From Paludibacteraceae bacterium (GTDB taxonomy: Bacteria > Bacteroidota > Bacteroidia > Bacteroidales > Paludibacteraceae), in assembly GCA_017461505.1 (NCBI GenBank), contig JAFTXV010000005.1, forward strand, positions 54,523 to 118,522: a stretch of 64,000 bases of DNA. Reading direction: 5' to 3'. This document shows, piece by piece, positions 2-53,253 of the stretch. Numbering within the stretch: the stretch's first letter is position 1; each line of letters opens with the position of its first letter. The notes under the pieces are model-generated. The model made no database searches. It was not told the origin of the DNA and saw nothing but the letters and a program-made list of their open reading frames with translations. Made by a program: the position numbers and the translations under genes.

Positions 2-1588
2 TCCTTCAACACACCGATTGAGTTTGTAGAAAATACCGTTTATGACCAAACCAACAATATCTATTCGCTCTATCTCGCTAAAGATTACCTGACAACAGAA
101 GACACACTTCTCTTTGAATCAGACCTCATCATGGAAGATGCTGTCATTGAGAAACTGCTCAAGCACCCTTATCCAGACTTAGCATTGGTGGATAAATACG
201 AGAGTTGGATGGATGGCACCGTTGTAACTATTGATGAAGAAAATCGTATCCAACGCTTTATACCGAACAGTCAATTTAAATACGAAGAGATTCCTTCTTA
301 CTACAAGACGGTGAATGTCTATAAATTCTCGCAGCAGTTTTCCGCCAATATGTATGTGCCCTTTATGGAGGCATATTGCACGGCATTAGGTAAAAACGAA
401 TACTACGAACAGGTCCTTCGCGTTATCACTATGCTGGATAACTCAAGTATGCGCGCTTTGCCTCTTACTGGAGAACAATGGTACGAAATAGATGATATTC
501 AAGACCTTGACATTGCAGAATCTATCTTCACAGACCATCAATACGATTTGCTTTGTTCACGCTATGGCGGCTATTGGCGCTATCCACACATGTTGGACTA
601 CTGCTATTTAGTCAATCCATATTTCCCTAACCAACGCATGCGTGACGAACTATCCGCCAGTTTCAATCGCTTATTGACCGAATACCCATCCGGGCAACGA
701 GTAAATAGTCTGTTAGCTGCCAAGGACTTTAGCGTCAAGCAAGACTATATGGTCGTAGGCAACGGTGCAGCAGAACTCATCAAAGTACTCTTCGAGCAGG
801 TGCTTGGCAAGGTGGGCATAGTGCGTCCTACTTTTGAAGAATATCCCAACCGCTTGATGCCCGAGCAAATAGTAGCATATAAAACACAGTCACCTGATTT
901 CAACTATACCGCAGACGACTTGATGCAATACTTTGCGGATAAAAACATCTGGTCATTGGTACTTATCAATCCCGATAATCCAACAGGCAATTACATCCCT
1001 TATGCCGATTGTTTGCGATTAGCTCAGTGGTGCCAAGAGCGCAATATTATCTTCATATTAGATGAGAGTTTCATTGATTTCTCTACCGAACACCCAACCT
1101 TCTTCTGCAACGACATTCTAGAGCAATACAGCAACTTGGTAGTTATCAAGAGCATATCCAAATCCTATGGTGTGCCTGGACTGCGATTGGGCATCTTAGC
1201 AACTTCTAATGCTATGTTGATGACCAATCTCCGCCGTTCGGTGTCGATATGGAATATTAACTCTTTTGCGGAGTTCTTCTTGCAAATCTTGGGCAAGTAT
1301 GAGAAGAACTACCAACAAGCAATGGATGACTTCCGCGCTGAGCGCACACGCTTTGTAGAGCAACTGCAATCCATTGATTATCTGCGCGTATTGCCTTCAG
1401 AAGCGAACTATGTACTTTGCGAGGTATTACCACCACACACTTCTCGCGAATTGGCGATCCTGCTGCTCAAGAAGCACAATATCCTCATCAAGGATTGCAC
1501 CTCCAAGTGTCAAGCACCATATATCCGCCTTGCAGTACGCGACACTCAAGATAATAACCAACTTATCAGTGCATTGAAGACACTATGA
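2..1588 (+). CDS. Nucleotidyltransferase-aminotransferase fusion (5' end outside window)
   Basis: The reading frame is open from base 2, so the start lies upstream. The first ~130 visible residues look like the C-terminal half of a LicC-type sugar/choline nucleotidyltransferase: an acidic site in FESDLIM and the closing motif WYEIDDIQDLDIAE. From about base 560 a fold-type I PLP aminotransferase follows, with VLINPDNPTGN, DESFIDF and the Schiff-base lysine in SISKSYGVPGLRLG. Such fusions probably make and activate an amine-bearing headgroup for a surface polymer; the substrate cannot be read from sequence. The stop overlaps the next start by ATGA, implying translational coupling with the cyclodeaminase-like gene and then a LicD gene, which supports a glycan-decoration role. 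Confidence 0.85.
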   Translation, partial: SFNTPIEFVENTVYDQTNNIYSLYLAKDYLTTEDTLLFESDLIMEDAVIEKLLKHPYPDLALVDKYESWMDGTVVTIDEENRIQRFIPNSQFKYEEIPSYYKTVNVYKFSQQFSANMYVPFMEAYCTALGKNEYYEQVLRVITMLDNSSMRALPLTGEQWYEIDDIQDLDIAESIFTDHQYDLLCSRYGGYWRYPHMLDYCYLVNPYFPNQRMRDELSASFNRLLTEYPSGQRVNSLLAAKDFSVKQDYMVVGNGAAELIKVLFEQVLGKVGIVRPTFEEYPNRLMPEQIVAYKTQSPDFNYTADDLMQYFADKNIWSLVLINPDNPTGNYIPYADCLRLAQWCQERNIIFILDESFIDFSTEHPTFFCNDILEQYSNLVVIKSISKSYGVPGLRLGILATSNAMLMTNLRRSVSIWNINSFAEFFLQILGKYEKNYQQAMDDFRAERTRFVEQLQSIDYLRVLPSEANYVLCEVLPPHTSRELAILLLKKHNILIKDCTSKCQAPYIRLAVRDTQDNNQLISALKTL

Positions 1589-4155: not shown

Positions 4156-6726
4156 TTATTTTTTCTTTCTCCACAATGGATAGGTCAATCCTCCTGCACT
4201 CAAGAGCAGTGCCAATATCAGGATTGCCATGCTCCACTTGTCCGTTTGTTTAGCATGTGGTTGGAACTCCATCACGAGTTGGTGATGACCCGCAGGAATA
4301 ACCGCAGCGCGGAGGGTATAGTTCACACGAGCAAGTTGCAATTCCATCTTCTCACCATTGTTATTCACGATATACAAGTGCCAATCATATGGATAATAGA
4401 TCTCTGAGAACACTGCCACTTGGTTGCGCTCGTTCATCGATTCGTACGTGAGGCTATTGGGGGCATACGATGTCAATTGAATCAAGGTTGTATCAAAGGC
4501 CATCAATGGTGTCACCTCTGGTTTGGTAATATCCAATGCCTCGGCGAATTTCTTATCGGCTACTGCTTGCTTGTGCAAATCAATCTCGCTCAGCAAAGCA
4601 CACTCCCCGTCTGGTGTATCTACCCAAATCACCTCATCCACAAACCAACAGTTGCCCATCGCATATGGATTCTGTACGGGGGCTTGTTTGCCACCTTGCA
4701 ATGGCACCACCGCATACTTCATATTGAGCATATTCAGTACTGGAAAATCCTTACCCTCATTCTCATCAGGCAGCATAAATCCTTGTGTGCGCATCACTGT
4801 TTGCATCAATGGGTTCATCTCTTTGGAGATATGCTCATCAATCAAGTCCTGATAACGGCGCAGTTTAGCTGCGGAATAACCACCAATAGACTTCAGTCGA
4901 TAACTGGTGCGTGCATCATTGAACGTATTAGTAGCCAAATTCAATACACGATAGTACGATTCATCTTGCAGAATCTGTTGCTCGTATGGCTGCATAGCAA
5001 AATACGCATCCGCATCTTTGGCTTTTACGAAATGGTCATTGCCAAAGAAACGCTTGTTCACAGGAAGCATGTCTGCTAGTACCAATACTGCTAACGCACC
5101 ATAAAAGGCGATATGGCGATAAGGCGATGAGGCGAGAGGCTGGGTATTTGATTTCCATGCATACCAATATACCACCGCAAAGCCCAATGCGATAAAGATA
5201 AACGAACGCCAAGCATCGGCTTTGATCATGGCAGTACGCTCATTGAAGATAGCATCGCGCAGCCAAGTAGGCACTTGGTTCACCCATTGTGCGTCATAAC
5301 TGCTGGTAACATCCACCACGCTTGCAAACAATGCAAAGAAGAGGCACAAGCTCGCAGTCACACCACCTGCAATGAACATATTTACACGCAGTTTCTCCCA
5401 TGCTATCTTTTTATCCACAATCTGCTGCAGAGCCAAAATACCCAGCAATGGCATCGTAATCTCTGCCACTACGAGGATACTCTCCACTGCGCGGAACTTA
5501 TTGTACATTGGGAAGTAGTTGAAGAACAATTCCGTGATCCACATCATATTTCTTCCCCACGCTAAAGCCACAGAGAAGAGTGTAGCCACCAATAGTGCCC
5601 ATTTGTATGGTCCTGGCACAATCAGCAAGCCCAGTACAAACAAGAAGCAGATAATCGCTCCCATATACACAGGACCACTGGTAAAGGCCTTCTCTCCACG
5701 ATAGGTAGGCACTTGTTGGCAGAACTGCTCGGCAGAGCGTTTAGGTATGCCATTGTCCTTCATTGTCTCGCACAATTGCGACTTCTCACCCACATTATAG
5801 CCACTCGCACCACCTTCCCAGTTAGGAATAAGGAAGGTCATTGTCTCATCCACACCATAGCTCCATGCAGTAGCGTAGTCAAGACTAAGACCGCTATTGC
5901 TATTAGAAGTTGGACCGCTATCGCTGTTAGATGTTAGTTCTGAGTGTCCGCCACGCATGGTCTCTTTGAGATAGGATTGGTTCATTTCTAACCAACTGGC
6001 TTTCGTACCTACAACCAGCAGCAGACTCAGTACCAAAACGCCAAGCGATATGCCCAAATCCTTCCATGCTTTATCCTTGATGTGAATATAGAGTTCGGCA
6101 CATGCCATCACACCTATGAGCATAAAGATATAATAAGTCATCTGTGGGTGGAGTGTCAAACTCAATATACCATAAAGCACTACCAATGGTGCTCCTAACC
6201 AATATTGTTTACGAAAAATGGCATAGAATCCACCTATTACTGGCGCCAAGAAGCCCAAAGCAGCTGCTTTGGTCATGTGCCCAGCAGGAATGATGAGCAA
6301 GAAGTAGGTCGAGAAACCTATTGCCAATCCACCTATGATGCTCAACCATGGATTGATTTTGAAGCAACGTAGCATGAGGAAGAAGCCAAAGAAGTAGGCG
6401 AAAATGATACCCACAATGGCCCAATCTCCTGCAAAACCAGCATGAGAAATCTGTTCCATAGTAGCTCTCAATTCACTCGTTGGCAAATTGCCTGTGATTT
6501 GATAGGTCGGCATACCACTAAACATTGAGTTAGTCCACCATGGACTATATCCGTGCTCATCATAGAAAGTACGTGCCTCTTGCGCCGCACCTTTCCAGTT
6601 GTTTACATCACCTTGCACCAGCACTTTGCCCTCTAATAGAGGCGCACAATAAATCATTGCTATCGCCACAAATGCCACAATTGCCACGGCATAGGGCAGC
6701 AGTTTCTTCCAATCAAATTGCTTCAT
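4156..6726 (-). CDS. YfhO family membrane protein
   Basis: A protein of 856 residues with about a dozen predicted membrane helices, opening with MKQFDWKKLLPYAVAIVAF and closing with a further helix and the tail RKKK. The arrangement (early loop with PWWTNSMFSGMPTYQ, long outer C-terminal domain) is that of YfhO, a family related to lipid-linked-sugar glycosyltransferases; some members glycosylate lipoteichoic acid. Two local oddities: residues ~262-280 hold a duplicated 8-residue PTSNSxSG unit from a 24-bp tandem repeat, and an 8-bp repeat (5105-5144) encodes part of the loop before a later helix. Followed by a GT2 gene, so envelope glycan work is likely. Confidence 0.88.
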   Translation of the reverse strand: MKQFDWKKLLPYAVAIVAFVAIAMIYCAPLLEGKVLVQGDVNNWKGAAQEARTFYDEHGYSPWWTNSMFSGMPTYQITGNLPTSELRATMEQISHAGFAGDWAIVGIIFAYFFGFFLMLRCFKINPWLSIIGGLAIGFSTYFLLIIPAGHMTKAAALGFLAPVIGGFYAIFRKQYWLGAPLVVLYGILSLTLHPQMTYYIFMLIGVMACAELYIHIKDKAWKDLGISLGVLVLSLLLVVGTKASWLEMNQSYLKETMRGGHSELTSNSDSGPTSNSNSGLSLDYATAWSYGVDETMTFLIPNWEGGASGYNVGEKSQLCETMKDNGIPKRSAEQFCQQVPTYRGEKAFTSGPVYMGAIICFLFVLGLLIVPGPYKWALLVATLFSVALAWGRNMMWITELFFNYFPMYNKFRAVESILVVAEITMPLLGILALQQIVDKKIAWEKLRVNMFIAGGVTASLCLFFALFASVVDVTSSYDAQWVNQVPTWLRDAIFNERTAMIKADAWRSFIFIALGFAVVYWYAWKSNTQPLASSPYRHIAFYGALAVLVLADMLPVNKRFFGNDHFVKAKDADAYFAMQPYEQQILQDESYYRVLNLATNTFNDARTSYRLKSIGGYSAAKLRRYQDLIDEHISKEMNPLMQTVMRTQGFMLPDENEGKDFPVLNMLNMKYAVVPLQGGKQAPVQNPYAMGNCWFVDEVIWVDTPDGECALLSEIDLHKQAVADKKFAEALDITKPEVTPLMAFDTTLIQLTSYAPNSLTYESMNERNQVAVFSEIYYPYDWHLYIVNNNGEKMELQLARVNYTLRAAVIPAGHHQLVMEFQPHAKQTDKWSMAILILALLLSAGGLTYPLWRKKK
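5105..5144. repeat. 8-bp tandem repeat inside yfhO-like gene
   Basis: Five 8-mers on the plus strand: AAGGCGAT, ATGGCGAT, AAGGCGAT, GAGGCGAG, AGGCTGGG. Reversed they read ATCGCCTT, the same unit seen inside recR at 53819. They encode a short loop just before a membrane helix. Confidence 0.75.
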
Positions 6727-6740
6727 TGTTGTATCAATTA

Positions 6741-6773
6741 GTCCGACCTGTCGGACGAATCTGACAGGTCAGA
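6741..6773. repeat. Two linked palindromes between yfhO and rnfA
   Basis: GTCCGAC-CT-GTCGGAC (7-bp arms) is followed at once by TCTGAC-AG-GTCAGA (6-bp arms). The build of distinct short palindromes in series resembles the larger arrays at 7398, 8876, 15072 and 63768. A terminator role for rnfA's upstream neighbours is possible, but there is no T-run. Confidence 0.7.
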
Positions 6774-6784
6774 CGTTGTTCATG

Positions 6785-7378
6785 TTATACTACGCCGCTA
6801 AAACCCATGAATGCCATAGCCAAGAGGCCAGCAGTCAAAAGAGCGATAGGTGTACCTTGCATAGCTTTTGGCACTTTAGCCAACGCTAATTGCTCGCGCA
6901 TACCTGCGAACAATACCAATGCCAACGCAAAACCAATAGCTGTTGCAATGGCAAACAACATACCGGTCAACAAGCCTGGTTCTGCGCCCATAGGCAGTTT
7001 ATATGTGCCACTGGCTACCATGATAGCCACACCCAACAAACAGCAGTTCGTTGTGATCAATGGCAAGAACACACCCAATGCTTGGTACAAAGATGGAGAG
7101 ATCTTCTTAAGGATAATCTCAATCATCTGCACGAGAGCAGCAATCACCAAGATAAACAAGATGGTTTGCAAAAAGCCCAAGCCCCAAGCGTTCAAGAGTT
7201 GTTGCAAAAGGTAAGTCACCAATGTTGCCAATGTCATGACAAACAACACGGCAGCACCCATACCCAGCGCAGTATTGATCTTCTTACTTACGCCCAAGAA
7301 AGGACAGATACCCAAGAACTGGCTCAATACGATATTATTCACGAATATCGCAGAGATAAATATCAAGAAATATACCAT
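6785..7378 (-). CDS. rnfA: Rnf electron transport complex subunit A
   Basis: RnfA is an integral membrane subunit of the Rnf complex, which moves electrons between reduced ferredoxin and NAD and pumps Na+ or H+. The protein has 197 residues and about six helices. It opens with VYFLIFISAIFVNNIVLSQF, the family's start, and has the conserved cysteine segment TTNCCLLGV near the middle, which in this family helps bind a membrane [2Fe-2S] cluster together with RnfE. It is the last gene of the operon, separated from rnfE by a 178-bp spacer full of small palindromes. Confidence 0.96.
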   Translation of the reverse strand: MVYFLIFISAIFVNNIVLSQFLGICPFLGVSKKINTALGMGAAVLFVMTLATLVTYLLQQLLNAWGLGFLQTILFILVIAALVQMIEIILKKISPSLYQALGVFLPLITTNCCLLGVAIMVASGTYKLPMGAEPGLLTGMLFAIATAIGFALALVLFAGMREQLALAKVPKAMQGTPIALLTAGLLAMAFMGFSGVV

Positions 7379-7397
7379 AATTATTTTCGTTTTTAGA

Positions 7398-7551
7398 TCA
7401 CTTCGTTGTAGTTCGCTCGTTTCACTCGCTGTAGTTCACTTCGCTGCGCTCGTTGTAGATGCTCTTTAGTCTACAGGCGCTTTGCGCCGATCTACAGGGC
7501 GTTAGCCCGATCTTCAGCCCATTGGGGCGATCTACAGGCGATAGCCGATCT
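7398..7551. repeat. Palindrome-and-spacer array A (rnfE-rnfA)
   Basis: The right half alternates the spacer GATCTACA with different short palindromes: GGCGCTTTGCGCC, GGGCGTTAGCCC, GCCCATTGGGGC, GGCGATAGCC. The left half has units ending in CTGTAG or TTGTAG with purine/pyrimidine-biased cores such as TTCGCTCGTTTCACTCG. The same modules recur in another order at 8876 and 15072. It would be transcribed as a string of small hairpins within the rnf mRNA. Confidence 0.85.
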
Positions 7552-7556
7552 AATAA

Positions 7557-8147
7557 TTATTTTTTCAAAAGTTTTTGTACCAATGCCATCAAGTAGCCCA
7601 ATACGATGAACGCACCAGGAGCGAGCACGAAAAACAACATACCATAGGTCTCGCTGTAGAGGTTCATGCCGAACAAGCTACCTGTACCAAGCAGTTCACG
7701 CACTGCACCAATCAAAGTCAATGCCAATGAGAAACCAAGACCCATACCCAGACCGTCCAAAGCAGATAAGCCAACGGTATTCTTAGCAGCAAAGGCCTCT
7801 GCACGACCAAGTACGATACAGTTCACCACAATCAGCGGAATGAACAAACCAAGCACCTCATAGATAGCAGGCAGATAGGCTTGCATCAGGAGCTGTACCA
7901 TGGTCACGAAAGTAGCAATCACCACGATAAACGCAGGGATACGCACTTTGTCAGGAATCAAATTCTTCAAGAGTGAAATCACCACGTTCGAGCAGATAAG
8001 CACGAAAGTGGTAGCGAGTCCCATAGACATACCATTGATAGCAGAAGTGGTAGTCGCCAAAGTAGGACACATACCCAACACGAGAGCGAATACTGGGTTC
8101 TCGCGCAAGATACCGTTCAATACGGTATTTAATGCTTTATTTTTCAT
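7557..8147 (-). CDS. rnfE: Rnf electron transport complex subunit E
   Basis: RnfE is a polytopic membrane subunit homologous to RnfA, and together they carry the membrane [2Fe-2S] site. The protein has 196 residues with six likely helices; MCPTLATTTSAINGM and LIVVNCIVLGRAEAFA match the family, the latter with the conserved cysteine. I chose ATG 8147 because it overlaps the rnfG stop (ATGA) and is preceded by a strong ribosome site, AAAGGAGG, unusual for this window. The operon order G-E-A fits other Bacteroidota. Confidence 0.95.
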   Translation of the reverse strand: MKNKALNTVLNGILRENPVFALVLGMCPTLATTTSAINGMSMGLATTFVLICSNVVISLLKNLIPDKVRIPAFIVVIATFVTMVQLLMQAYLPAIYEVLGLFIPLIVVNCIVLGRAEAFAAKNTVGLSALDGLGMGLGFSLALTLIGAVRELLGTGSLFGMNLYSETYGMLFFVLAPGAFIVLGYLMALVQKLLKK

Positions 8148-8857
8148 TGTTGGCCTCCTTTCTGTTTTAGACAATATTGCTCAGCACATCCTCTGCCTGC
8201 ACACTCCAATGGGTCATTGCCATTTGGACAAACAAATACTTCTGCTGGCTCCACCTCTACTTTCTCAATCAGCATAGGTTGTTGAGCAATTGCATTATAG
8301 GCTCTCACCACAACCTCTAAGAATGCACGAGATGTAATAGTAGAAGCGGTGATAGCATCTACATCGCCACCATCTTTGCTTACGCTGAAATTGGTAGTAG
8401 CGGGGTTCTTGCCAAGGATGTTGGACTTTGGTTTATCAGGATTGCAGAACCATGTGCTCATCAGTGCACCTAGACCTGGGGTCTCTGCTTGCTCCAATAC
8501 CACATAGCGAACTACATCGCCTACATTGTTGAAACCAACCATCAGGCGGAAAGTGCCGCCGAATGGCATGTTTTGGTTACCCTCGGTGCTTGCCTCTACG
8601 GCAGTACCGATCCACTCTTCGCCTACATACGCTTTGTATAGGGTCACGCCATTGCTCTCCTCAGCTTCAGCAATACGGATATCGCCTTCTACCTCAGGGA
8701 GCACTTGCATGATAGCGCTTTGTTGCTTCTCAGTCATTGCCGCAGCGATAGGATCTTTGGTCAGCATATATACGCCAGCCAAAGCAGCCGCAGCCACCAA
8801 CGCGATAAGCGTCAGCGATAGCAACATATTCTTAAATGAACTTTGTAATTTTGCCAT
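8144..8857 (-). CDS. rnfG: Rnf electron transport complex subunit G
   Basis: RnfG is anchored by one N-terminal helix (about residues 12-32) and carries covalently bound FMN on its outer domain. The flavinylation site is the threonine-rich DAITASTITSRA near residue 175, a variant of the usual SGAT motif. FMN_bind features such as ETPGLGA are present. The tail is odd: after the normal end it adds a ~30-residue segment with four cysteines (spacing C-x8-C-x4-C-x4-C), which could bind metal or form disulfides. It is coupled to rnfE by an ATGA overlap. Confidence 0.94.
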   Translation of the reverse strand: MAKLQSSFKNMLLSLTLIALVAAAALAGVYMLTKDPIAAAMTEKQQSAIMQVLPEVEGDIRIAEAEESNGVTLYKAYVGEEWIGTAVEASTEGNQNMPFGGTFRLMVGFNNVGDVVRYVVLEQAETPGLGALMSTWFCNPDKPKSNILGKNPATTNFSVSKDGGDVDAITASTITSRAFLEVVVRAYNAIAQQPMLIEKVEVEPAEVFVCPNGNDPLECAGRGCAEQYCLKQKGGQQ

Positions 8858-8875
8858 AATACTTTTGTTTTAGTT

Positions 8876-9030
8876 CGTTTCACTATAGATCGTTCGCTTT
8901 GCTCACTGTAGATCGCTCGTTTCACTCACTGTAGATCACTTCGCTTCGCTCGTTGTAGTACTATTTTCTACAGCCCGAAGGGCGATCTACCATCTACAGG
9001 CGCTTTACGCCGATCTACAGGGCGTAAGCC
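8876..9030. repeat. Palindrome-and-spacer array B (rnfD-rnfG)
   Basis: The right half reads CTACA-GCCCGAAGGGC, then GATCTACCATCTACA, GGCGCTTTACGCC, GATCTACA, GGGCGTAAGCCC, GATCT. The left half holds three units ending in CTGTAG/TTGTAG. The modules are those of arrays A and C, shuffled. It fills the whole 181-bp gap between rnfD and rnfG. Confidence 0.85.
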
Positions 9031-9038
9031 CGATCTAA

Positions 9039-10037
9039 TTATTTCTTTTTCTCGCCAAAACGCTTTGGGCGAATGAGGTTCAACAATGGTGCACATGCAT
9101 TCATGATTAGGATAGCGAACGACATACCCTCTGGGTAAGCACCCCAAGTACGGATTACCATAACAATCACACCGATACCCACACCGAAGATGATCTTTCC
9201 CCAGTTGCTCATAGGAGAAGTAACATAGTCGGTAGCCATGAACCATGCACCCAGCATCATACCACCGGTGCAAAGACTCAGCATCACATATTCGCCTGTG
9301 CATACGCTCTCTGGCAACATTCCAGCCCAACCAGTCACCGCAGCAAACAATGCCACAGTAGCCATGATGCTCACTGGGATATGCCATGTGATGACGCGCT
9401 TAGCGATGAGGAAGATACCGCCTGCGAGCAAGAGCAATGCGCTCACCTCGCCAAGACTACCACCCATCTTACCGATAAGGATATCCCACATCTCTGGCAG
9501 TTCATTGAGTACGCTAGCTTCGCCGCTCTTGATAGCCTCTTTCAATGCAGCCAGAGGAGTAGCACCTGTAGCAGCATCCACATATGAGGTAGCAAAACCT
9601 TGTGGCACTGGCCATGTAGTCATCTGAGCAGGGAAAGAGATCAAGAGGAACACACGACCCACAAGAGCAGGGTTGAAGATGTTTTGTCCTAATCCACCGA
9701 AACTCATTTTCGCTACGCCGATAGCCACCAACGCACCGATAATCACGATCCACCAAGGCAAGTTGCTTGGCAAGTTGAATGCCAACAACAGACCTGTCAG
9801 TACAGCAGAGAGGTCGCCGATAGTGGACTTTTGTTTCAAGATATATTTCGCAATCAGCCACTCAAACAGCACACATGCTGCCACGCTGATGGCGGTGGTG
9901 ATGAGTGCGCCCCAACCGAATTGCCAAACGCTGACTGCGTAAGCTGGCAGGAGGGCGATAATCACCAACAGCATATTTTTCCGCACGCTATCACCACTAT
10001 GGAAGTGTGGTGCGGGAGATACTATAAGTTGTTTCAT
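9039..10037 (-). CDS. rnfD: Rnf electron transport complex subunit D
   Basis: RnfD is a membrane subunit with covalent FMN. The protein (332 residues) begins with the typical SPAPHFHSGDSVRKNML, has about nine helices, and carries the flavin attachment motif ATGATPLA near residue 160, where the threonine is the anchor. It ends in KRFGEKKK. It follows rnfC after a short gap containing a heptamer repeat and precedes rnfG after the palindrome array B. Together with RnfG it relays electrons across the membrane to RnfA/E. Confidence 0.96.
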   Translation of the reverse strand: MKQLIVSPAPHFHSGDSVRKNMLLVIIALLPAYAVSVWQFGWGALITTAISVAACVLFEWLIAKYILKQKSTIGDLSAVLTGLLLAFNLPSNLPWWIVIIGALVAIGVAKMSFGGLGQNIFNPALVGRVFLLISFPAQMTTWPVPQGFATSYVDAATGATPLAALKEAIKSGEASVLNELPEMWDILIGKMGGSLGEVSALLLLAGGIFLIAKRVITWHIPVSIMATVALFAAVTGWAGMLPESVCTGEYVMLSLCTGGMMLGAWFMATDYVTSPMSNWGKIIFGVGIGVIVMVIRTWGAYPEGMSFAILIMNACAPLLNLIRPKRFGEKKK

Positions 10038-10045
10038 TATTCTAG

Positions 10046-10080
10046 CCTTTAAACTTTAAACTCTAAACTTTCAACTACTT
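10046..10080. repeat. 7-bp tandem repeat at the 3' end of rnfC
   Basis: Five heptamers: CCTTTAA, ACTTTAA, ACTCTAA, ACTTTCA, ACTACTT. The array overlaps the rnfC stop codon and fills the rnfC-rnfD gap. It is close in sequence to the long array at 30996 and to the one inside rnfB at 11448. Confidence 0.75.
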
Positions 10081-11418
10081 ATTCGCTGCTTGACGAGCAC
10101 GAATAAGTCCTCCCACTTTCGCTTTACCCATGCGCACATAGTCGAGCAGTGGCAAGTGGCTTGGGCAGGTGAATTGGCAGCAACCGCACTCAATGCAGTC
10201 CATGATGTTGTGGTCTTCCATCTCGTCCCACATGCTGTGCCATGCTTGTTTGCTGAGCAGCCATGGCTCCAAGCCCATTGGGCAAGCACCAATACATTTG
10301 CCGCAGCGCACGCAGTTCGTAATCTCTTGGCGCAGACTCTCTGCCTCTGGCAAGAACAGCAGACCGCTCACGCGCTTGTTGCTTGGCATGTCAATATTGC
10401 TCATCGCGCGACCCATCATAGGACCACCGCCAATCACTTTACCTGTATCCTCTGGCACACCGCCTGCAAGAGCCACAACCTCGGTCAATGGTGTACCGAA
10501 ACGTACATCGTAGTTACCAGGTTTAGCGAGACTCTTACCTGTGACGGTCATCACGCGCGAGATGAGTGGTTTATTCTTTTGCACTGCCTCATATACCGCA
10601 TAGATTGTAGCTACGTTATCCACTACAGCGCCTACCTCAATTGGTAGCGCACCACTTGGTACTTGGCGACGGATACATGCATCAATGAGCTGTTTCTCGC
10701 CACCTTGTGGATATTTCAGTTTGAGGGCTTTCACCTCAATGCCCAGCACTTTGCTTGCGAGAGCAGTCATGTGCTTGATAGCATCGGGTTTGTTGGCCTC
10801 GATACCGATAATCGCTTTCTCAATGTTGAGCGCACGCATCAGCAGTTGAATACCGATGATAATCTCCTCGCCGTGCTCAAGCATGAGTTGGTGGTCGCAA
10901 GTCAAGTATGGCTCGCACTCCACGCCGTTCACGATCAGCACTTCTGCTTTCTTGCCTGGAGGAGGAAGAAGTTTCACGTGGGTTGGGAAACATGCGCCAC
11001 CCAAACCTACGATACCTGCCTCTTGTACCTTATCTATAATATACTTTGGTTCGTAGTCTAATTTGCGCACGATATCCTTGCTGCGGTCGATGGTCTCAAG
11101 CCACTCGTCGCCCTCCACATCCATGAAGACAGCAGGCATTTTCATGCCCCATGCATCGATGGTTGAGTCGATCTTGGTGATGGTACCACTGAAAGGAGCA
11201 TGGATATTCGCACTCACGAAACCACCTGCTTTGGCGATCAATTCGCCTACTTTCACTTTCTGTCCTTTCTCCACTACTGCTTGCGCAGGCGCACCAATGT
11301 GTTGTACCAACGGAATAATTGCTTTCGCTGGCAATGGGCATTCGGTGATAAGTTGATGAACAGAGTATTGCTTATTATCATGTGGATGTACTCCACCTAT
11401 TCTAAATGTTGCTTTCAT
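10075..11418 (-). CDS. rnfC: Rnf electron transport complex subunit C
   Basis: RnfC is the soluble NADH-facing subunit. The 447 residues include an N-terminal RnfC barrel, the NADH/FMN-binding GLGGACFPTHVKL near residue 137, a SLBB region, and two [4Fe-4S] ferredoxin motifs near the C-terminus, CVRCGKCIGACP and CIECGCCQFTCP. Length is usual for the short (non-fused) type. Its start overlaps the rnfB stop by ATGA. It exchanges electrons between NAD and the RnfB/RnfD relay. Confidence 0.97.
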   Translation of the reverse strand: MKATFRIGGVHPHDNKQYSVHQLITECPLPAKAIIPLVQHIGAPAQAVVEKGQKVKVGELIAKAGGFVSANIHAPFSGTITKIDSTIDAWGMKMPAVFMDVEGDEWLETIDRSKDIVRKLDYEPKYIIDKVQEAGIVGLGGACFPTHVKLLPPPGKKAEVLIVNGVECEPYLTCDHQLMLEHGEEIIIGIQLLMRALNIEKAIIGIEANKPDAIKHMTALASKVLGIEVKALKLKYPQGGEKQLIDACIRRQVPSGALPIEVGAVVDNVATIYAVYEAVQKNKPLISRVMTVTGKSLAKPGNYDVRFGTPLTEVVALAGGVPEDTGKVIGGGPMMGRAMSNIDMPSNKRVSGLLFLPEAESLRQEITNCVRCGKCIGACPMGLEPWLLSKQAWHSMWDEMEDHNIMDCIECGCCQFTCPSHLPLLDYVRMGKAKVGGLIRARQAANK

Positions 11419-12368
11419 GCCTTTGCCTCCTCTTGTTTAGTTTCTACGCCTTTAGCCTCTAACCTTTCGCCTTTAACCTCAGTTACTACTGGCGCAGCCT
11501 TTGGCGCTGCTGGAGCAGTTTTCACCTCTCCGTTTTCAGTTTTCACCTTCCTTGGTGGGAAATTTACCGCATGAATAGCCCCTGTTGGGCACGCATCCTC
11601 GCACTTGCGGCAGAGGCGGCACTTGTTGTAATCGATGTACGCCAAGTTATTCTCGATGGTGATTGCATCAAACTCGCACACCTTTTGGCACTTGCTACAA
11701 CCGATACATGCGTTTGTACATGCCTTGCGTGCTACAGCACCTTTGTCTTTGTTCACGCACATCACTACCATGCGACGGTTCTTTGGACCTTTCTTGCGGA
11801 GCTCAATGATGTTGCGTGGACACGCTTTCACACACTTACCGCAACTGGTACATTTCTCGTCGTCCACTTCTGGCAACCCTGTCTCGGGGTTCATGTGGAT
11901 GGCATCAAACTCGCAGGCAGCCACACAGTCGCCGCAGCCCAAGCATCCGAACGGACAAGCCGACTCACCCACATAGCAGTTATGCAGGATCTGGCAACTC
12001 TTAGCACCGTCGTAGGTGCTAGTTTTTGGTCGTGCCTCGCACGTACCGTTGCAGCGTACTACTGCTACTTTGGGGTCGATGTTTCCGACCGCCATTCCAA
12101 GAATCTCACCTACTGTCTTCATCGTAGGTGCACCGCCTACAGGGCAGAGAAGTCCATCCAGCGAGTCCGCTTTCACGCAACTCTCGGCAAAAGCGCGACA
12201 GCCCGCAAAACCGCAACCACCGCAGTTGGCACCTGGCAACGCCTCTTGCACCTCATCGATACGTGGATCTTCTTCTACCTTGAACTTCTGAGCTACGAAA
12301 TAGAGTAGCACGGCTGCTACCAATCCCGTCACGCCCAAAACGGCTAAAGAAATCAGAATTAAATTCAT
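11415..12368 (-). CDS. rnfB: Rnf electron transport complex subunit B
   Basis: RnfB accepts electrons from ferredoxin. From ATG 12368 it has one membrane helix (residues ~1-27), an Fe-S domain with CGGCGFAGCRAF near residue 50, then four ferredoxin [4Fe-4S] motifs (CLGCGDCVAAC, CTSCGKCVKACP, CIGCSKCQKVC, CRLCRKCEDAC), making 317 residues. In-frame codons upstream of 12368 are antisense-like extension and not part of the protein. The last ~50 residues are a Lys/Glu/Ala-rich tail whose DNA contains two 7-bp tandem arrays (11448 and 11518), absent from typical RnfB. Confidence 0.96.
   Translation of the reverse strand: MNLILISLAVLGVTGLVAAVLLYFVAQKFKVEEDPRIDEVQEALPGANCGGCGFAGCRAFAESCVKADSLDGLLCPVGGAPTMKTVGEILGMAVGNIDPKVAVVRCNGTCEARPKTSTYDGAKSCQILHNCYVGESACPFGCLGCGDCVAACEFDAIHMNPETGLPEVDDEKCTSCGKCVKACPRNIIELRKKGPKNRRMVVMCVNKDKGAVARKACTNACIGCSKCQKVCEFDAITIENNLAYIDYNKCRLCRKCEDACPTGAIHAVNFPPRKVKTENGEVKTAPAAPKAAPVVTEVKGERLEAKGVETKQEEAKA
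11448..11482. repeat. 7-bp tandem repeat inside rnfB tail (CCTTTAG type)
   Basis: Five plus-strand heptamers: GCCTTTA, GCCTCTA, ACCTTTC, GCCTTTA, ACCTCAG. This is the same CCTYTAR family as the 16-unit intergenic array at 30996. On the coding strand it encodes a charged stretch around VKGERLEAKG. Confidence 0.8.
11518..11552. repeat. 7-bp tandem repeat inside rnfB tail (GTTTTCA type)
   Basis: Five plus-strand heptamers: GTTTTCA, CCTCTCC, GTTTTCA, GTTTTCA, CCTTCCT. They encode KVKTENGEVKT on the minus strand. A near-identical array in the next gene upstream (12659) encodes GKVKTEN. Confidence 0.78.
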
Positions 12369-12391
12369 TGTTTTTTTTATGTTTTTATTAG

Positions 12392-12841
12392 TTATTTTTT
12401 CTTCTTTGCTGTAAAAGAGAATTCTTTTTGCAATCTGTCTTTGAACAGTCCCAACACGATATAGTACAACGCCATTGCGCAAAGTGCTGCTGTGCCGAGG
12501 ATTTCCTCGCGCACATTCCACAACGCATTGCCCATAAATATCACTGCCAACATAACAAAGAACGGCAGCAGATATGCCAGTATCACGGCTTTCCATCCCA
12601 TCTTCTGTTGTACCATCACTTCCACGGTATCGCCAACATGGTAGGATTGTGTAGAATTGTTTTCCGTTTTTACCTTTCCGTTTTCGCCTAAAAGTACAAC
12701 CGTCATCTCCTTCTCCGCACTCTCCGCGCTGGCGCACATGGCTTTGGCTTTGCATGCGGCGCATGCGCTTGTTTGCACGATGCGCACAAGGGCGGTCCCG
12801 TCCTCATTCAACGCGATGATTATGCCGTCATGTTTGATCAT
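12392..12841 (-). CDS. RseC/SoxR-reducing-system-like protein
   Basis: This 149-residue membrane protein heads the rnf operon. The N-terminal domain has the family's cysteine cluster CAACKAKAMC near residue 31, two helices follow (about 83-103 and 107-127), and the tail is lysine-rich. RseC-family proteins are regularly encoded beside rnf genes and may help assemble or regulate the complex; the biochemical role is not settled. Residues ~54-64 (GKVKTEN region) are encoded by a 7-bp tandem repeat. It starts 23 bp upstream of rnfB. Confidence 0.88.
   Translation of the reverse strand: MIKHDGIIIALNEDGTALVRIVQTSACAACKAKAMCASAESAEKEMTVVLLGENGKVKTENNSTQSYHVGDTVEVMVQQKMGWKAVILAYLLPFFVMLAVIFMGNALWNVREEILGTAALCAMALYYIVLGLFKDRLQKEFSFTAKKKK
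12659..12693. repeat. 7-bp tandem repeat inside the rseC-like gene
   Basis: Five heptamers: GTTTTCC, GTTTTTA, CCTTTCC, GTTTTCG, CCTAAAA. They are homologous in unit sequence to the array in rnfB at 11518 and produce the same KVKTEN peptide in an otherwise unrelated protein. Confidence 0.75.
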
Positions 12842-12887
12842 TCGTCTACCTTTAAAACTTTTAGACCCCTTAAAACTTTCTCACCAT

Positions 12888-13082
12888 TTAGAAAGTTGGC
12901 ACTGGCTCGTTGTATAGTTTCACGAACAACTCGCGTGCGGACACTTCCACCCATCCGCCTTTACCGTCTCCTTGAATGAGCGTTTCATTTCGCATAGCTT
13001 TATCGCGAAGCATACGATACTCCGCCAGTTCAAGACCATGAAGCAAATCTTCTTGATATTGTTTCTTTTCAGTCGTTGACAT
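12888..13082 (-). CDS. Small protein partner of zeta-toxin-like gene
   Basis: A 64-residue charged protein, MSTTEKKQYQEDLLHGLE at its start, with one likely long helix and a C-terminal block AREL FVKLYNEP. I do not recognise a family. It overlaps the 3' end of the zeta-toxin-like gene by 14 bp (ATG 13082), so the two are cotranslated; a TTG at 13091 is the alternative start. Position and size suit an antitoxin or accessory subunit, but here it follows the toxin-like gene rather than preceding it, and there is no visible DNA-binding motif. Function is inferred only from context. Confidence 0.7.
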   Translation of the reverse strand: MSTTEKKQYQEDLLHGLELAEYRMLRDKAMRNETLIQGDGKGGWVEVSARELFVKLYNEPVPTF

Positions 13083-13632
13083 ACGTCTCAATCTTTTTAT
13101 AAAGTTCTACATCCAATATATCCTCATCCGTAGCAATCACATGCCGTGGGTTGCAAGCATTATCTACTAATGTCCATGTATCTACTGCGTCCTTGTAGAG
13201 ATGAAAGAAGTTTTTCAATCCCAATTCATAACGCCTACGGATTACATCTGCTGCTATATCATGCCCTCCTTCGCTTACGCGTTGGGCTACTCGTTGCACT
13301 GCCAGTTCTGGGCTCTCAAGCCAAAAGAACAAAATATTCACCACATATCCTTCTGCTTGTGCGCGTTTTACCAATTGCAGGTACGAGCGTGTCGCCAATG
13401 TTGTTTCAATAGAGAACGATATGCCTTGTTGTAGCAGTTCTTCTATGCGTTGCAGCATGATTCGCCCTGCGGGAATAGCCATACTGTTGGGGTTGAGCGG
13501 AGATAATCCACGTGCTATCTCATCCGCATTCACAAACTCCTGACAATGCCAAATCTCTGGCAAAATGGTAAAGGATGCAGTTGTTTTTCCTGCACCATTA
13601 CATCCTGCGATTATGTAGAGTGTTTTTGACAT
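13069..13632 (-). CDS. Zeta-toxin-like P-loop kinase (predicted ABC-type ATPase family)
   Basis: The 187-residue protein opens with a Walker A motif, YIIAGCNGAGKTTASF, followed by FVNADEIARGLSP, FSIETTLATRSY and an arginine-rich helix VQRVAQRVSEGGHDI, the layout of the zeta-toxin/'predicted ABC-type ATPase' family. True zeta toxins phosphorylate UDP-N-acetylglucosamine; many short chromosomal relatives have no proven toxicity. I chose ATG 13632, just downstream of a good promoter (13660-13690). The small partner gene overlaps its end, giving a two-gene unit. Whether this is a toxin-antitoxin pair or a housekeeping kinase is open. Confidence 0.85.
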   Translation of the reverse strand: MSKTLYIIAGCNGAGKTTASFTILPEIWHCQEFVNADEIARGLSPLNPNSMAIPAGRIMLQRIEELLQQGISFSIETTLATRSYLQLVKRAQAEGYVVNILFFWLESPELAVQRVAQRVSEGGHDIAADVIRRRYELGLKNFFHLYKDAVDTWTLVDNACNPRHVIATDEDILDVELYKKIETYVND

Positions 13633-13659
13633 TATTTCTTTTGCTCTGCAAAAAACGCG

Positions 13660-13690
13660 CAAAATTAGTAAAAATTTCTCACATACGCAA
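13660..13690 (-). promoter_or_regulatory. Bacteroidota-type promoter of zeta-toxin-like gene
   Basis: Minus strand: TTG (13690-13688), 20-bp spacer, TAATTTTG (13667-13660). Predicted transcription starts just before the ATG at 13632. Confidence 0.7.
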
Positions 13691-13707
13691 GTAAATACGA
13701 ACAAAAC

Positions 13708-13738
13708 TTGCATATTCCAAAAAAATACAGTACTTTTG
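13708..13738 (+). promoter_or_regulatory. Bacteroidota-type promoter of winged-helix regulator
   Basis: TTG (13708-13710), 20-bp spacer, TACTTTTG (13731-13738). It is back to back with the promoter at 13660-13690, 17 bp away, so the two divergent units share a control region. Confidence 0.72.
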
Positions 13739-13761
13739 TCCCATCAAATCACCTATCTTTG

Positions 13762-14355
13762 ATGAAATATCGTTTTGCTGACATAGTTATAGACAGTTCT
13801 GCGCATTGTGTTATGCGTCGTGCGCAGGTTGTGCGACTGACCAATATCGAGTTTCGATTGCTCGAATACTTGGCTCAAAACGCCGACCAAATATGCTCGC
13901 GCGAGGATATCTTGAACCATGTCTGGGGACAGCAATTTCAGTACGATACGGGCACGATAGATGTCCATCTCCATTCTCTACGCCGCAAACTGGATTTTGA
14001 TAACCAATATCCCATCGAATCGATTCGTAATGTGGGTATTATCTTGTACACGCAACCTAAACAACAACTCCATACACTCAATATACAAGAGTTTGCCATT
14101 CAGTGGATTACGGATCATGAGGCGGACTTTCAAGCCAAGCAACTCACCCCTCGTTTGCACCTTGATCCGTTTGTGAGTGAAATTACTATCTCACCACAAG
14201 ATCTTCGTCAGATGTTGGACGGTATTTTGCAAGTCCTTTTGCCTGTTTCTCACCCGGGTATTATTCGTATCAAATCCCACTTGGGTAGCCACTATTTCTC
14301 CTTGTCGTTGGATGTGAATGGCACCGTCAATGAACTTCGTATTCCGTTGGCGTGA
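13762..14355 (+). CDS. Orphan winged-helix regulator without receiver domain
   Basis: The 197-residue protein begins directly with an OmpR/PhoB-type effector domain: VVRLTNIEFRLLEYLAQNA, CSREDILNHVWG and the recognition helix IDVHLHSLRRKLD, then the wing ESIRNVGIILY. No phospho-acceptor receiver precedes it; the promoter at 13708-13738 excludes an upstream extension. The C-terminal ~90 residues resemble a degenerate histidine-kinase ATPase fold (SPQDLRQMLDGILQVLL, then an alternating strand region) but lack the asparagine and glycine boxes. It is a DNA-binding regulator whose signal input is unknown. The divergent zeta-toxin-like gene and the downstream barrel gene are candidate targets. Confidence 0.82.
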   Translation: MKYRFADIVIDSSAHCVMRRAQVVRLTNIEFRLLEYLAQNADQICSREDILNHVWGQQFQYDTGTIDVHLHSLRRKLDFDNQYPIESIRNVGIILYTQPKQQLHTLNIQEFAIQWITDHEADFQAKQLTPRLHLDPFVSEITISPQDLRQMLDGILQVLLPVSHPGIIRIKSHLGSHYFSLSLDVNGTVNELRIPLA

Positions 14356-14396
14356 TAATTTAAGGTATATTTAAGTCCATTTTATTTTAAAACCAC

Positions 14397-14404
14397 TACC
14401 TTTG
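14397..14404 (+). promoter_or_regulatory. Promoter -7 element of outer-membrane-like gene
   Basis: TACCTTTG 18 bp upstream of ATG 14422; no clear TTG at the -33 position. Confidence 0.55.
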
Positions 14405-14421
14405 CCGCAAATTTCATAATT

Positions 14422-15057
14422 ATGCGACAAAGACTATTTCTTTTTCTTCTTTTTTGCCCGCTTTGGGTGTTTGCAGCCAAGGACTCTACGGCTGTTTTTC
14501 AGGGCTATAGTGGCGGCATGATGGTGCATGCAGGTTATCTGTTTGGCGACAATCCCGCTGCGGTTCTTCCCTCGGGCGAATCCCTCTCTTCACAGGGGCT
14601 CACGGCTGGTATTGGTGGCTCACTACGCATTAACCTTAAACGACATCTTCGTGTGGGGTGCGAGGGTTTTGTTTCTACGATGAATAGCCAACTGACCAAT
14701 CAACGAAACTATTTGCAATCAGGCAGTTATGTTCGTACGGGTTGGGGTGGAGTGTTGGCAGATGCTTGTTGGCGAGGCGAACGTTTTTGGCCTTTTATTG
14801 GCGGCTCAGTAGGTGGTGGTGCTATGCATACTTTGGCGGTTGCAGAGGGTCGCGAAGAAGACTGGTTGCCCGAAGAGTCGGCCGTCTTGCACAAACAAAG
14901 TTTCATGTATGTTAATCCCTATGCGGGTATCGATTTTTGCCTCACTCCTCGTGTGCATGTCTGCCTTCGTGTGGATTGGATGCTGGCTTTCGCCAAACGC
15001 TCTATAGTTCATCCTACTGGCCCTCGCCTCTATGTCGGCTTTATGTTCTGTCATTAA
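14422..15057 (+). CDS. Outer-membrane beta-barrel-like protein
   Basis: A 211-residue protein with a signal peptide (RLFLFLLFCPLWVFAA, cleavage after ~19) followed by alternating hydrophobic/polar strands rich in glycine and aromatic residues (GGSLRIN, LRVGCEGF, GWGGVLADACW, FIGGSVGGGAM, LYVGFMF), which suits a small eight-stranded barrel. I do not recognise a named family. It has its own promoter element and lies after the orphan regulator, so it may be under that regulator's control; this is inference. The final residue is histidine rather than the aromatic residue usual for barrel proteins. Confidence 0.7.
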   Translation: MRQRLFLFLLFCPLWVFAAKDSTAVFQGYSGGMMVHAGYLFGDNPAAVLPSGESLSSQGLTAGIGGSLRINLKRHLRVGCEGFVSTMNSQLTNQRNYLQSGSYVRTGWGGVLADACWRGERFWPFIGGSVGGGAMHTLAVAEGREEDWLPEESAVLHKQSFMYVNPYAGIDFCLTPRVHVCLRVDWMLAFAKRSIVHPTGPRLYVGFMFCH

Positions 15058-15071
15058 ATAACATTAAATAA

Positions 15072-15222
15072 GATCGCCCTTCGGGCTGTAGATCGGCGCA
15101 GAGCGCTTGTAGATGGTAGATCGGGCTTACGCCCTGTAGACTACTAGGAAACTACAGTGGAGCGATAGCGTAACGATCTACAGCGAGCAAGGCGAGCGTT
15201 CTACAGCGAAGCGATCTACTAA
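15072..15222. repeat. Palindrome-and-spacer array C
   Basis: Reverse complement of the A/B arrangement: GCCCTTCGGGC, TGTAGATC, GGCGCAGAGCGCT, TGTAGATGGTAGATC, GGGCTTACGCCC, TGTAGAC, then units such as GAGCGATAGCG and GCGAGCAAGGCGAGCG joined by ATCTACA or TTCTACA. It fills the gap between the barrel gene and the DUF4491 gene, so the arrays are not confined to the rnf operon. Confidence 0.85.
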
Positions 15223-15236
15223 CTAAATAATCATAT

Positions 15237-15521
15237 ATGAATTTCTCAGGTATTCTTCTCGGTTTAGTTGCTTTTCTTTGTATTGGTTTGTTCCATCCTT
15301 TAGTGATCAAAGGCGAGTATTATTTCGGCACCAAATGTTGGTGGGTGTTTGCTTTGGTGGGGGTAGGTATACTTATTGGCTCGTTGTTTGCAAGCAATAT
15401 GTATCTATCTGTGATTCTAGGAGTTATTGCTTTCTCTAGTTTTTGGTCTATCCTCGAACTCTTCCATCAGGAGAAGCGTGTCCAACGTGGTTGGTTCCCC
15501 AAAAATCCCAAACGGAAGTAG
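15237..15521 (+). CDS. DUF4491 family membrane protein
   Basis: A 94-residue membrane protein with three helices. The segments FHPLVIKGEYYFGTKCWWVF and the tail RGWFPKNPKRK are hallmarks I recognise from DUF4491, a small Bacteroidota family of unknown function. Length equals the family's. The start ATG 15237 follows array C closely. No partner is evident: the next gene is convergent. Confidence 0.85.
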   Translation: MNFSGILLGLVAFLCIGLFHPLVIKGEYYFGTKCWWVFALVGVGILIGSLFASNMYLSVILGVIAFSSFWSILELFHQEKRVQRGWFPKNPKRK

Positions 15522-15582
15522 GCTTACCAACCTACTTGGTCGCAAAAAAAACAGAACGACAACACTAATACATCCCAATAAA

Positions 15583-16647
15583 TCAAACAATAAACAATAG
15601 GTAAATGCTTGTAAATACAAACATCGAGAGAATCTCTAACCATATGACTAGCACTTTGTTATCTTCCAGGTCAAATGAAGAAATCAGTTCTTGTCGCTCC
15701 AAAGAGTTTTCCTCTTGATAACATGCATAGAAATAATTGGCACTATCAACGATTTTTTGCACGGGCAACAGGTTTAAGGTGATAATCTTTTTTGGTGATT
15801 CTAGATTAGATTTATAGAAAAACGCCAAACCTGCAACCCATCCCAATCTTCCTACTGGAGTATGCATTATTTCGGCTGAAGCAACGGACTTCCATTGGAT
15901 ATTAACTTTCTTAAACTTAGGGAATAGTGAGAAAGTATGGAGTTCTTTGTACACGCCACGAATTCCTTTTCTGTCAATGATTAAGTAACACTTTCTCTCC
16001 ATTATGCATCCTATCAATAAAAAAATGAAGAGGATAAGAAATATGGAGAATAACACGAATATAAAGACAAATGCCCATTTATCTTCGCCCTGAACCATCT
16101 GTGGCGCAAGATGGAAACAAAATCCAGCCAAAAGCAGGATAGCAACCAACATATATGCGTTGCGACCATGGTATCCTATCCTACTTGCAACATCAAACCG
16201 AACACTTTCTGCGTTAATGAGATAAGGAGGCAACGTTTTGGGAGCAACAACACCTTCTTCTTCCAAATGTTTTCGTGCTTTCACAAATAATTTTAGCAAC
16301 CATTTTGGGATTACGATTGACAAAAGCACTAAAATGATTAGTGGTAATATTTTTACGCCTTGATATCTTTTACGAGTTGGTTGTGGTCGAAAATCGCTCT
16401 TATTTTTTTTGTAGTTTTTGTTCTCAAACTCCTTTGTTCGGATTACCACAACTCCGCCGGAAGCACGTTCGCCATAGATATTTACAGCCTCCGCAGAATC
16501 AAGTATAGTCACACTCTCTATTTGTTCTGGTGACAATTGATTTTGAGTTTCAAAAGAGCCGTCTATTAGGTATAAAGGCGCCTTCTTTGTTGCCATAGAC
16601 AACATCGAAAATAGCAAAACAAATAATATACAAAATAATCTACGCAT
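15583..16647 (-). CDS. Membrane protein with SusC-plug-like N-terminus
   Basis: A signal peptide (RRLFCILFVLLFSMLSMA) leads into residues ~22-65, which read like the core of a TonB-receptor plug: APLYLIDGSF, LSPEQIESVTILDSAEAV, IYGERASGGVVVIRTK. No barrel follows. Instead there are helices near residues 95-120, 160-180 and 190-215, then a soluble region with a PH-like feel (KCYLIIDRKGIRGVYKE) and a C-terminal helix. Total 354 residues from ATG 16647; a promoter is at 16671-16701. The plug fragment is also seen fused to M56 peptidases in Bacteroidota, so it may be a binding module. Function is unknown. Confidence 0.75.
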   Translation of the reverse strand: MRRLFCILFVLLFSMLSMATKKAPLYLIDGSFETQNQLSPEQIESVTILDSAEAVNIYGERASGGVVVIRTKEFENKNYKKNKSDFRPQPTRKRYQGVKILPLIILVLLSIVIPKWLLKLFVKARKHLEEEGVVAPKTLPPYLINAESVRFDVASRIGYHGRNAYMLVAILLLAGFCFHLAPQMVQGEDKWAFVFIFVLFSIFLILFIFLLIGCIMERKCYLIIDRKGIRGVYKELHTFSLFPKFKKVNIQWKSVASAEIMHTPVGRLGWVAGLAFFYKSNLESPKKIITLNLLPVQKIVDSANYFYACYQEENSLERQELISSFDLEDNKVLVIWLEILSMFVFTSIYLLFIV

Positions 16648-31107: not shown

Positions 31108-31120
31108 CTTACCTTTACTT

Positions 31121-53239: not shown

Positions 53240-53253
53240 TCACATATTCATCA

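Follow-up and report, generated by a model that had tools for sequence, protein, structure and literature searches.

REPINs, according to the passages of PMC3116915 cited here, have conserved inverted ends and a less conserved, hairpin-forming middle, with compensatory changes, and BIMEs are described in the part of PMC2817692 drawn on as regularly spaced REPs in alternating orientations. Palindromic insertions within genes of Rickettsia and Wolbachia are cited in the excerpted account of PMC2996958. In the sections of PMC3733652 used here, GTAG-tagged families are assigned to Proteobacteria, Cyanobacteria, Chloroflexi and PVC, and Bacteroidetes appear with CGTC families only.

Here, we describe arrays of hairpin-forming modules from a Paludibacteraceae bacterium (1.74 Mb draft genome, 82% complete), starting from a 64,000-nt stretch of one contig, hereafter the window. 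Genomes, contigs and loci are numbered with the prefixes G, C and L, respectively. Each of the three arrays in the window (A, B and C; Table 1) is two-sided, its linkers being inverted about a central ∼10 nt: the order is TAGATC, modules with TGTAGATC linkers, the centre, modules with GATCTACA linkers and GATCTA, with some linkers altered. A preliminary description had reported four unlike palindromes joined by a constant spacer; all four, and the linker, are present in the sequence, but confined to the right half of array A (7470–7552). It did not include the left half, which is also part of the element and carries the inverted linkers and modules of a G.A type, nor the arrays that occur within genes. 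The linkers are largely kept, as that description held, but not throughout: in the right half of A, one internal linker out of three is GATCTTCA, and in the left half both internal linkers are TGTAGTTC rather than TGTAGATC. Its claim that modules recur in another order and strand is borne out by B and C, which share GCCCGAAGGGC and GGGCGTAAGCCC, C being inverted together with its genes. Exact GATCTACA occurs seven times in the window against 2.1 expected, a count that none of 100 shuffles attained. The arrays are closely fitted between genes: A starts 13–15 nt from the start codon of the rnfA-like gene (7378) and 2 nt from the preceding stop, B lies −1 nt from the stop and 11 nt from the next start, and C lies 10 and 16 nt, respectively, from these points. 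Rho-independent terminators were also considered; 10 sites are predicted between 6500 and 16000 of the window (8.4 in shuffles), none of them inside A, B or C. Elsewhere in the window, there are tandem repeats with 7- and 11-nt units (31003–31103, 31115–31172, 53253–53305 and 55091–55128), which are unrelated to the hairpin arrays.

Table 1. Arrays A, B and C and their neighbouring genes, in window coordinates
Feature	Coordinates	Strand	Content or Pfam match
Array A, X half (rnf operon sense)	7394..7459	-	modules ACGAGCGCAGCGAAGT, GCGAGTGAAACGAGC, ACGAAGT
Array A, centre separating inverted halves	7460..7469	.	sequence
Array A, Y half (operon antisense)	7470..7552	+	GGCGCTTTGCGCC, GGGCGTTAGCCC, GCCCATTGGGGC, GGCGATAGCC; linkers GATCTACA or GATCTTCA
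Array B, X half	8871..8958	-	ACGAGCGAAGCGAAGT, GTGAGTGAAACGAGC, GTGAGCAAAGCGAAC, GTGAAAC
Array B, centre	8959..8966	.	sequence
Array B, Y half	8967..9037	+	GCCCGAAGGGC, GGCGCTTTACGCC, GGGCGTAAGCCC
Array C, Y half (antisense to + strand genes)	15071..15140	-	GCCCGAAGGGC, AGCGCTCTGCGCC, GGGCGTAAGCCC
Array C, X half (sense)	15152..15219	+	GTGGAGCGATAGCGTAAC, GCGAGCAAGGCGAGC, GCGAAGC
Gene 3' of array A: Rnf-Nqr membrane subunit, RnfA-like	6785..7378	-	PF02508
Gene 5' of array A: Rnf-Nqr membrane subunit, RnfE-like	7557..8174	-	PF02508
Gene 3' of array B: FMN-binding protein, RnfG-like	8144..8857	-	PF04205
Gene 5' of array B: RnfD-like	9039..10037	-	PF03116
Gene 5' of array C: without Pfam match at E 1e-6	14422..15057	+	
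Gene 3' of array C: DUF4491 protein	15237..15521	+	PF14898

These shape-conserved hairpin arrays are a real family, and a larger one than first described. The genome-wide search for the linker that had been proposed, run as TCTACA-N(8..22)-GATCTA, returns 105 matches, among which tandem units may be counted more than once, against two for the reversed control. Modules were then bounded by their linkers, not by palindromy; 58 of 99 distinct modules from the own genome (7–16 nt, from clusters among the matches listed, plus the window) are fully Watson–Crick self-complementary, whereas 500 shuffles gave a mean of 1.8 and a maximum of 7, placing the palindromes beyond chance. With relatives added, the figure is 93 of 200 (200 shuffles: mean 3.2, maximum 10) and the pairing fraction 0.735 versus 0.289, for a set that is partly biased: the named relatives were retrieved by a pattern containing one palindromic module, and the array-like clusters of the unnamed relatives were chosen by eye, with isolated matches omitted. 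Strict linkers bound 147 distinct modules, and at one locus (L036) there is a run of 18 units of 15 nt each. What is kept in each module is its ability to fold, not its letters. Bacterial repeat families usually come to notice through a conserved palindrome; in these arrays, the palindrome varies freely while the fold is maintained, and such families can therefore escape homology searches.

The modules are of two kinds. Y modules are Watson–Crick palindromes with diverse stems (GGCGC..GCGCC, GCCAC..GTGGC, GGTGC..GCACC, GTCCC..GGGAC and ACCGC..GCGGT). X modules are purine-rich, have the look of a direct repeat (GCGAGC NNN GCGAGC) and fold as short stems around a tandem G.A mismatch; tandem G.A pairs in such a context are stable. 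The tandem is kept in 34 of 37 strict 15-mers, two of the other three being plain palindromes. Within the 34, pairs 6–10 and 2–14 are Watson–Crick or G-T in 32 and 31 cases, respectively, which 0 and 3 of 5000 partner shuffles equal; pairs 1–15 (34/34) and 5–11 (33/34) hardly vary, and 294 and 560 of 5000 shuffles, respectively, do as well, so that covariation beyond shuffles is seen at two of the four pairs. G-T and A-C mispairs in X are equally numerous (5 versus 5), giving no strand signal. When X modules are folded singly, RNA parameters favour the sense strand in 26 of 34 cases and disfavour it in 6, and DNA parameters favour it in 13 and disfavour it in 1. Of 57 long Y modules, 54 have a slight advantage on the linker strand, the antisense one where arrays lie between genes. 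For the 7-nt modules, such as GCGAAGC, the parameters used yield no stability value; GCGAAGC is an unusually stable DNA mini-hairpin.

The predicted sense folds of A, B and C beat those of shuffles (z = −2.7, −4.4 and −3.0, respectively). The string of hairpins that the preliminary description envisaged for the RNA is one fold only, as the minimum-energy sense folds of B and C pair the two halves together. As whole arrays, the sense strand is the more stable in just 10 of 30 with RNA parameters (on average, it is 2.5 kcal/mol worse) and in 15 of 30 with DNA parameters; the simple reading that the arrays are selected for a stable RNA therefore fails.

The arrays are strongly biased in their direction relative to genes. 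All 64 strict-linker X modules with an orientation are sense with respect to the neighbouring or host gene (seven more are without direction), relatives and orthologues included, and the own genome contributes 20 sense, none antisense and one without direction; outside this strict set, four X-like modules whose letters or linkers are changed read antisense (three at L052 5580 and one at L074 729). The 7-mer modules are sense in 107 of 119 cases (42 of 46 in the own genome), and long Y modules (at least 10 nt) are antisense in 56 of 59 cases between co-directional genes and sense in 24 of 32 inside genes. These counts exclude 14 arrays labelled convergent or divergent, and they depend on a crude gene finder (longest ORFs), which classed the G266 array at rnfE-rnfA (L105) as convergent; the full collection of 122 arrays includes orthologues of related species, 40 being from the own genome. 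At 15 of 16 two-sided intergenic loci, collapsed by hand, Y modules adjoin the stop codon of the upstream gene, and X modules or 7-mers lie ahead of the following start codon. The own genome supplies twelve of these (A, B, C, L036, L037, L038, L044, three in L045, L052 5798 and L057) and relatives three (L065/L160, L174 and L185); the one locus that departs, L052 5580, stands back to back with another array. At L036 and L065/L160, the 3' half is made of 7-nt modules alone. The count omits L046 and L158 (divergent), L182 (weak) and the two-sided arrays within ORFs (L055, L165 and L176), whose direction relative to the ORF is alike. Array C, 6 kb from A and B, has the opposite orientation, and the genes around A and B are on the minus strand whereas those around C are on the plus strand; direction thus appears to track the genes rather than the regional direction of replication.

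Sixty-three of the 122 arrays, and 19 of the 40 in the own genome, lie within ORFs as called by a simple ORF finder. Of 42 such ORFs listed, 20 were scanned, and 19 of these have a Pfam match at E 0.001, one of which (L045) falls below the curated cut-off; array-bearing ORFs include DXS, glycogen synthase, AroA, DHH phosphoesterase, PheT, LpxB, an ABC ATPase and DnaX. Pfam domains flank the insert on both sides in DXS, PheT and the DHH protein, and in FtsH the array sits at the C-terminus. When DXS is aligned across 12 genomes and LpxB across 11 (G213 has no LpxB match and was gapped there in the tree), extra in-frame loop residues are seen in the own copy. Arrays within genes are mostly one-sided and preserve the frame. 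Those in essential enzymes illustrate how repeat DNA can enlarge protein loops.

Relatives carry other tandem repeats (RLKAKGE, EAMRRLGD and SGKWKVEGG) in the same DXS and LpxB loops (L124–L149); as a single protein loop holds different micro-repeats in different species, the genus seems to grow protein loops from several micro-repeat families. At L062 4287–4732, within a DHH phosphoesterase gene, 15-nt hairpin units are read in frame as pentapeptide repeats (PF00805 match). Also of note, the end of L049 and the start of L052 (contigs C7 and C9) both run out in alike in-gene arrays of 24-nt units, and these contig ends are perhaps one long array that broke the assembly.

One specific module was found in 38 stretches among 84,980 species genomes (a count from which the own record was possibly left out), all of them from Paludibacteraceae or Bacteroidales MAGs, mostly of cattle, buffalo, sheep, yak and deer; viral contigs gave no match to either of two patterns. 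Some match to the linker pattern is present in 195 of 300 genomes of the family, most genomes having 0–3, and the standouts within the own genus are G000 (127), G118 (47), G250 (31), G256 (15), G138 (13), G213 (12), G266 (10), G262 (8) and G203 (6). Genomes of other genera with 6–10 matches are, with the control in brackets, G085 with 10 (4), G204 with 8 (1), G068 with 7 (7), G053 with 6 (0), G216 with 6 (0) and G200 with 6 (4); a true-looking array on a G083 contig (L083) is assigned to another genus, and could reflect misbinning.

At the rnfE-rnfA site, a gap of 161–187 nt holds an array in G000, G118, G203 and G266, and the gap is without one in G262 and G213 (4 nt) and in G138 and G256 (31 nt), so that the sister pairs G266/G256 and G203/G138 of a three-protein tree differ in array presence. 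The idea that units are copied and shuffled gains from this absence in sister species, and from the orthologous arrays of G118 and G203, between which a single 23-nt unit has been gained or lost. The 31-nt allele, which lacks an array, is similar to outgroup sequence, and comparison with the empty site reveals no clean target duplication and no exact ends. Because the inner modules are shared, this comparison, made at one intergenic site and across species rather than populations, suggests a single old gain of the rnfE-rnfA arrays, followed by loss or by interspecies exchange. As one sister species has an array at this site and the other lacks it, both movement and an effect on expression can be tested directly. 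Separately, L045 has three near-identical arrays (2177, 6199 and 7461) in gaps beside gyrB-like, ychF-like and iPGM genes, and relatives (L084, L085 and L089) have two similar arrays in the stretches covered; this suggests that the L045 arrays arose by local copying or conversion.

The design is not limited to one linker. G250 carries another kind of two-sided inverted array, its linker being TGAAC/GTTCA, at L188 11608–11752 and 13053–13185, the same two rnf gaps that A and B occupy in the genome of the window. The pattern CTGAACA-N(3..18)-CTGAACA has 15 matches in G250, three in G118 and none in G000 or G154, and its reversed control has one in G000 and none in the other three. By eye, 9 of the 15 matches in G250 enclose a palindrome (e.g. 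GCAGCTTTGCTGC, GCCCGGTTACGGGC and GCGGCTTAGCCGC). Among 61 genomes of the genus (G250 not included), the pattern occurs in 24; many of these matches stand alone and enclose no palindrome, and palindromic ones are found in G316, G262 and G118. In G154, intergenic GGCTAAAGCC palindromes (L187 7718–8057 and 15156–15248) are flanked by CGATC and TACGATAG, and these are possibly a third linker family.

The linked transposase that the preliminary description suggested looking for was sought with the profile of the Y1 family (PF01797; Y1/RAYT), which moves REPs. It is found in one of nine array-bearing genomes, and is not adjacent to an array there: PF01797 has no match in the own genome (82% complete) or in seven of eight array-bearing relatives, six of these eight being at least 90% complete, and the sole match (G250 C9:38481) is ∼10 kb from the nearest array among the matches listed. 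A scan of 29 neighbouring proteins gave no transposase match, and there is no cas gene among the flanking genes scanned. Consistent with the suspicion that no named class has this design, there are no Rfam matches at E 1 in window positions 6500–16000, and we found no description of such a family in print within the open-licence literature.

We consider it probable (roughly 60%) that the arrays are copies of a small, non-autonomous REPIN/BIME-like repeat, disseminated within a single clade of the genus, which also enters genes as the Rickettsia palindromic elements do and is kept by its fold rather than its sequence. The units would multiply and shuffle via slippage and hairpin processing of single-stranded DNA, new sites would arise through an enzyme acting in trans, and copies would survive where a folded insert is tolerated, namely, in the gap from a stop to the next start or in a protein loop. 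Intergenic copies, if active in mRNA, might serve as folded spacers shielding the 3' side of the upstream transcript, a role proposed for REPs; X modules would fold via G.A tandem pairing on one strand alone, the sense strand of the gene. That neither the Y1 family profile nor the 29 neighbouring proteins disclosed a mobilizer weighs against an element of this sort, as do the two X pairs at which covariation stays within the shuffles, the linker matches in other genera and the outgroup-like 31-nt allele, at which no clean target duplication is seen. It is very improbable that these are REPs or REPINs moved by a RAYT-type Y1 transposase. The linker does contain GTAG near the palindromes, and inverted conserved parts with compensatory change are also features of REPINs in the passages of PMC3116915 cited; PF01797 is, however, lacking from the own genome and from seven of the eight relatives, its one occurrence, in G250, is remote from the nearest array among the matches listed, and the GTAG is not at the foot of the stem. 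A dedicated enzyme would be superfluous if the arrays were a by-product of replication, one micro-repeat among many, arising by slippage and hairpin-templated correction. The one-unit difference between G118 and G203, the 18-unit run in L036, the other micro-repeats in the same protein loops of relatives and the many 7- and 11-nt tandem repeats in the window are all in keeping with such an origin; yet, template correction should convert G.A to Watson–Crick pairs, and nearly all of the strict 15-mers keep the tandem, and neither the dispersal of the same linker to many unrelated loci nor the direction bias would be expected, so we regard this origin as unlikely.

Another reading is a functional role in mRNA. 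The intergenic two-sided arrays would then be selected intercistronic structures that tune the stability or translation of their neighbours, with X, purine-rich and weakly folded, kept before the start codon and Y, strongly folded, after the stop, the in-gene copies being stray spread; we think this doubtful. The consistent direction at 15 of the 16 hand-collapsed loci speaks for such a role, as do the filling of co-directional gene gaps by A, B, C and most others (exceptions include L036, L038, L044 and L052), the sense folds of A, B and C that surpass shuffles and the occupation of the same two rnf gaps by the TGAAC-linker array of G250. Set against these are the sister species that lack an array at rnfE-rnfA, the location of over half of the arrays inside ORFs, the lack of a common family among the scanned flanking genes, rnf subunits aside, and the sense strand not being the stabler. 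It is possible, and we put it forward tentatively, that the arrays represent a separate repeat class with a constant linker and hairpins of free sequence, comprising two or more families that differ entirely in linker (GATCTACA and CTGAACA) in one genus and at the same intergenic sites across species, in which selection or a copying enzyme would read shape and strand instead of sequence. Since the G.A tandem allows a purine-rich hairpin that can form on the sense strand but not on its complement, such an element would be polarized to transcription, and an enzyme would probably recognize it as RNA or as single-stranded DNA exposed by transcription. The sense-only G.A modules offer a natural test of RNA- versus DNA-level selection on small repeats.

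Returning to the preferred reading of a small repeat kept by its fold, the earlier statement that the arrays are unlike REP, ERIC or CRISPR was too strong, given the features of REPINs and BIMEs in the excerpts cited. Like REPINs and REP doublets of Pseudomonas and others, they are short and dispersed, with inverted conserved parts and a fold maintained by compensatory change (PMC3116915, in the passages cited). In REPINs, the REP is the conserved element and clusters neighbour RAYT genes; in the present arrays, conservation is in the linker and the palindromes vary. The inverted halves and the covariation at two of four X pairs agree with REP/REPIN organization. There is, however, no conserved palindrome as the unit, given the 147 distinct modules, and no RAYT gene (PF01797) beside a copy (0 of 1 in the own genome and 1 of 8 in relatives, that one non-adjacent, in drafts that are incomplete). 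BIMEs of E. coli and others likewise combine palindromic units, in varying orientation, into composite arrays (PMC2817692, in the part drawn on). Here, too, an intergenic mosaic of palindromic units and linkers is seen. In BIMEs, the palindromic unit is the conserved part and falls into few conserved classes, and the element binds IHF, gyrase or Pol I; on that definition, as generally understood, the module diversity found here departs from BIMEs, for which we know of no G.A class. The GTAG- and CGTC-tagged REPs are also tetranucleotide-tagged stem-loops, some of them inside genes, but the tag ends the stem-loop there, whereas here GTAG lies within the 8-nt linker (PMC3733652, in the sections used).

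Inside genes, the nearest likeness is to the palindromic elements of Rickettsia and Wolbachia (RPE and WPE), which are in-frame palindromic insertions in housekeeping genes, and PARCELs are similarly tandem, palindromic, coding and thought to be mobilized, but consist, in the account excerpted, of a 75-nt repeat coding one 25-residue motif rather than of a constant linker with variable hairpins (PMC2996958). The inserts in DXS and LpxB are in frame in functional genes and absent from orthologues, as in the Rickettsia elements. RPEs are single longer elements; here, by contrast, there are modular arrays with variable hairpins, and intergenic copies too. Hairpin repeats of organelles (Volvox and the sponge RHE) also fill intergenic DNA in a lineage-specific manner, but those of the sponge RHE have conserved stems and differing loops, and the setting is organelle DNA (PMC2670323 and PMC2800124, in the passages cited). 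As for CRISPR, a constant repeat with non-palindromic spacers is not what is found, the modules being short and largely self-complementary. Overall, the closest behaviour is that of REPINs and BIMEs between genes and of the Rickettsia palindromic elements inside them, the arrays being, by the comparisons made, a full member of neither.
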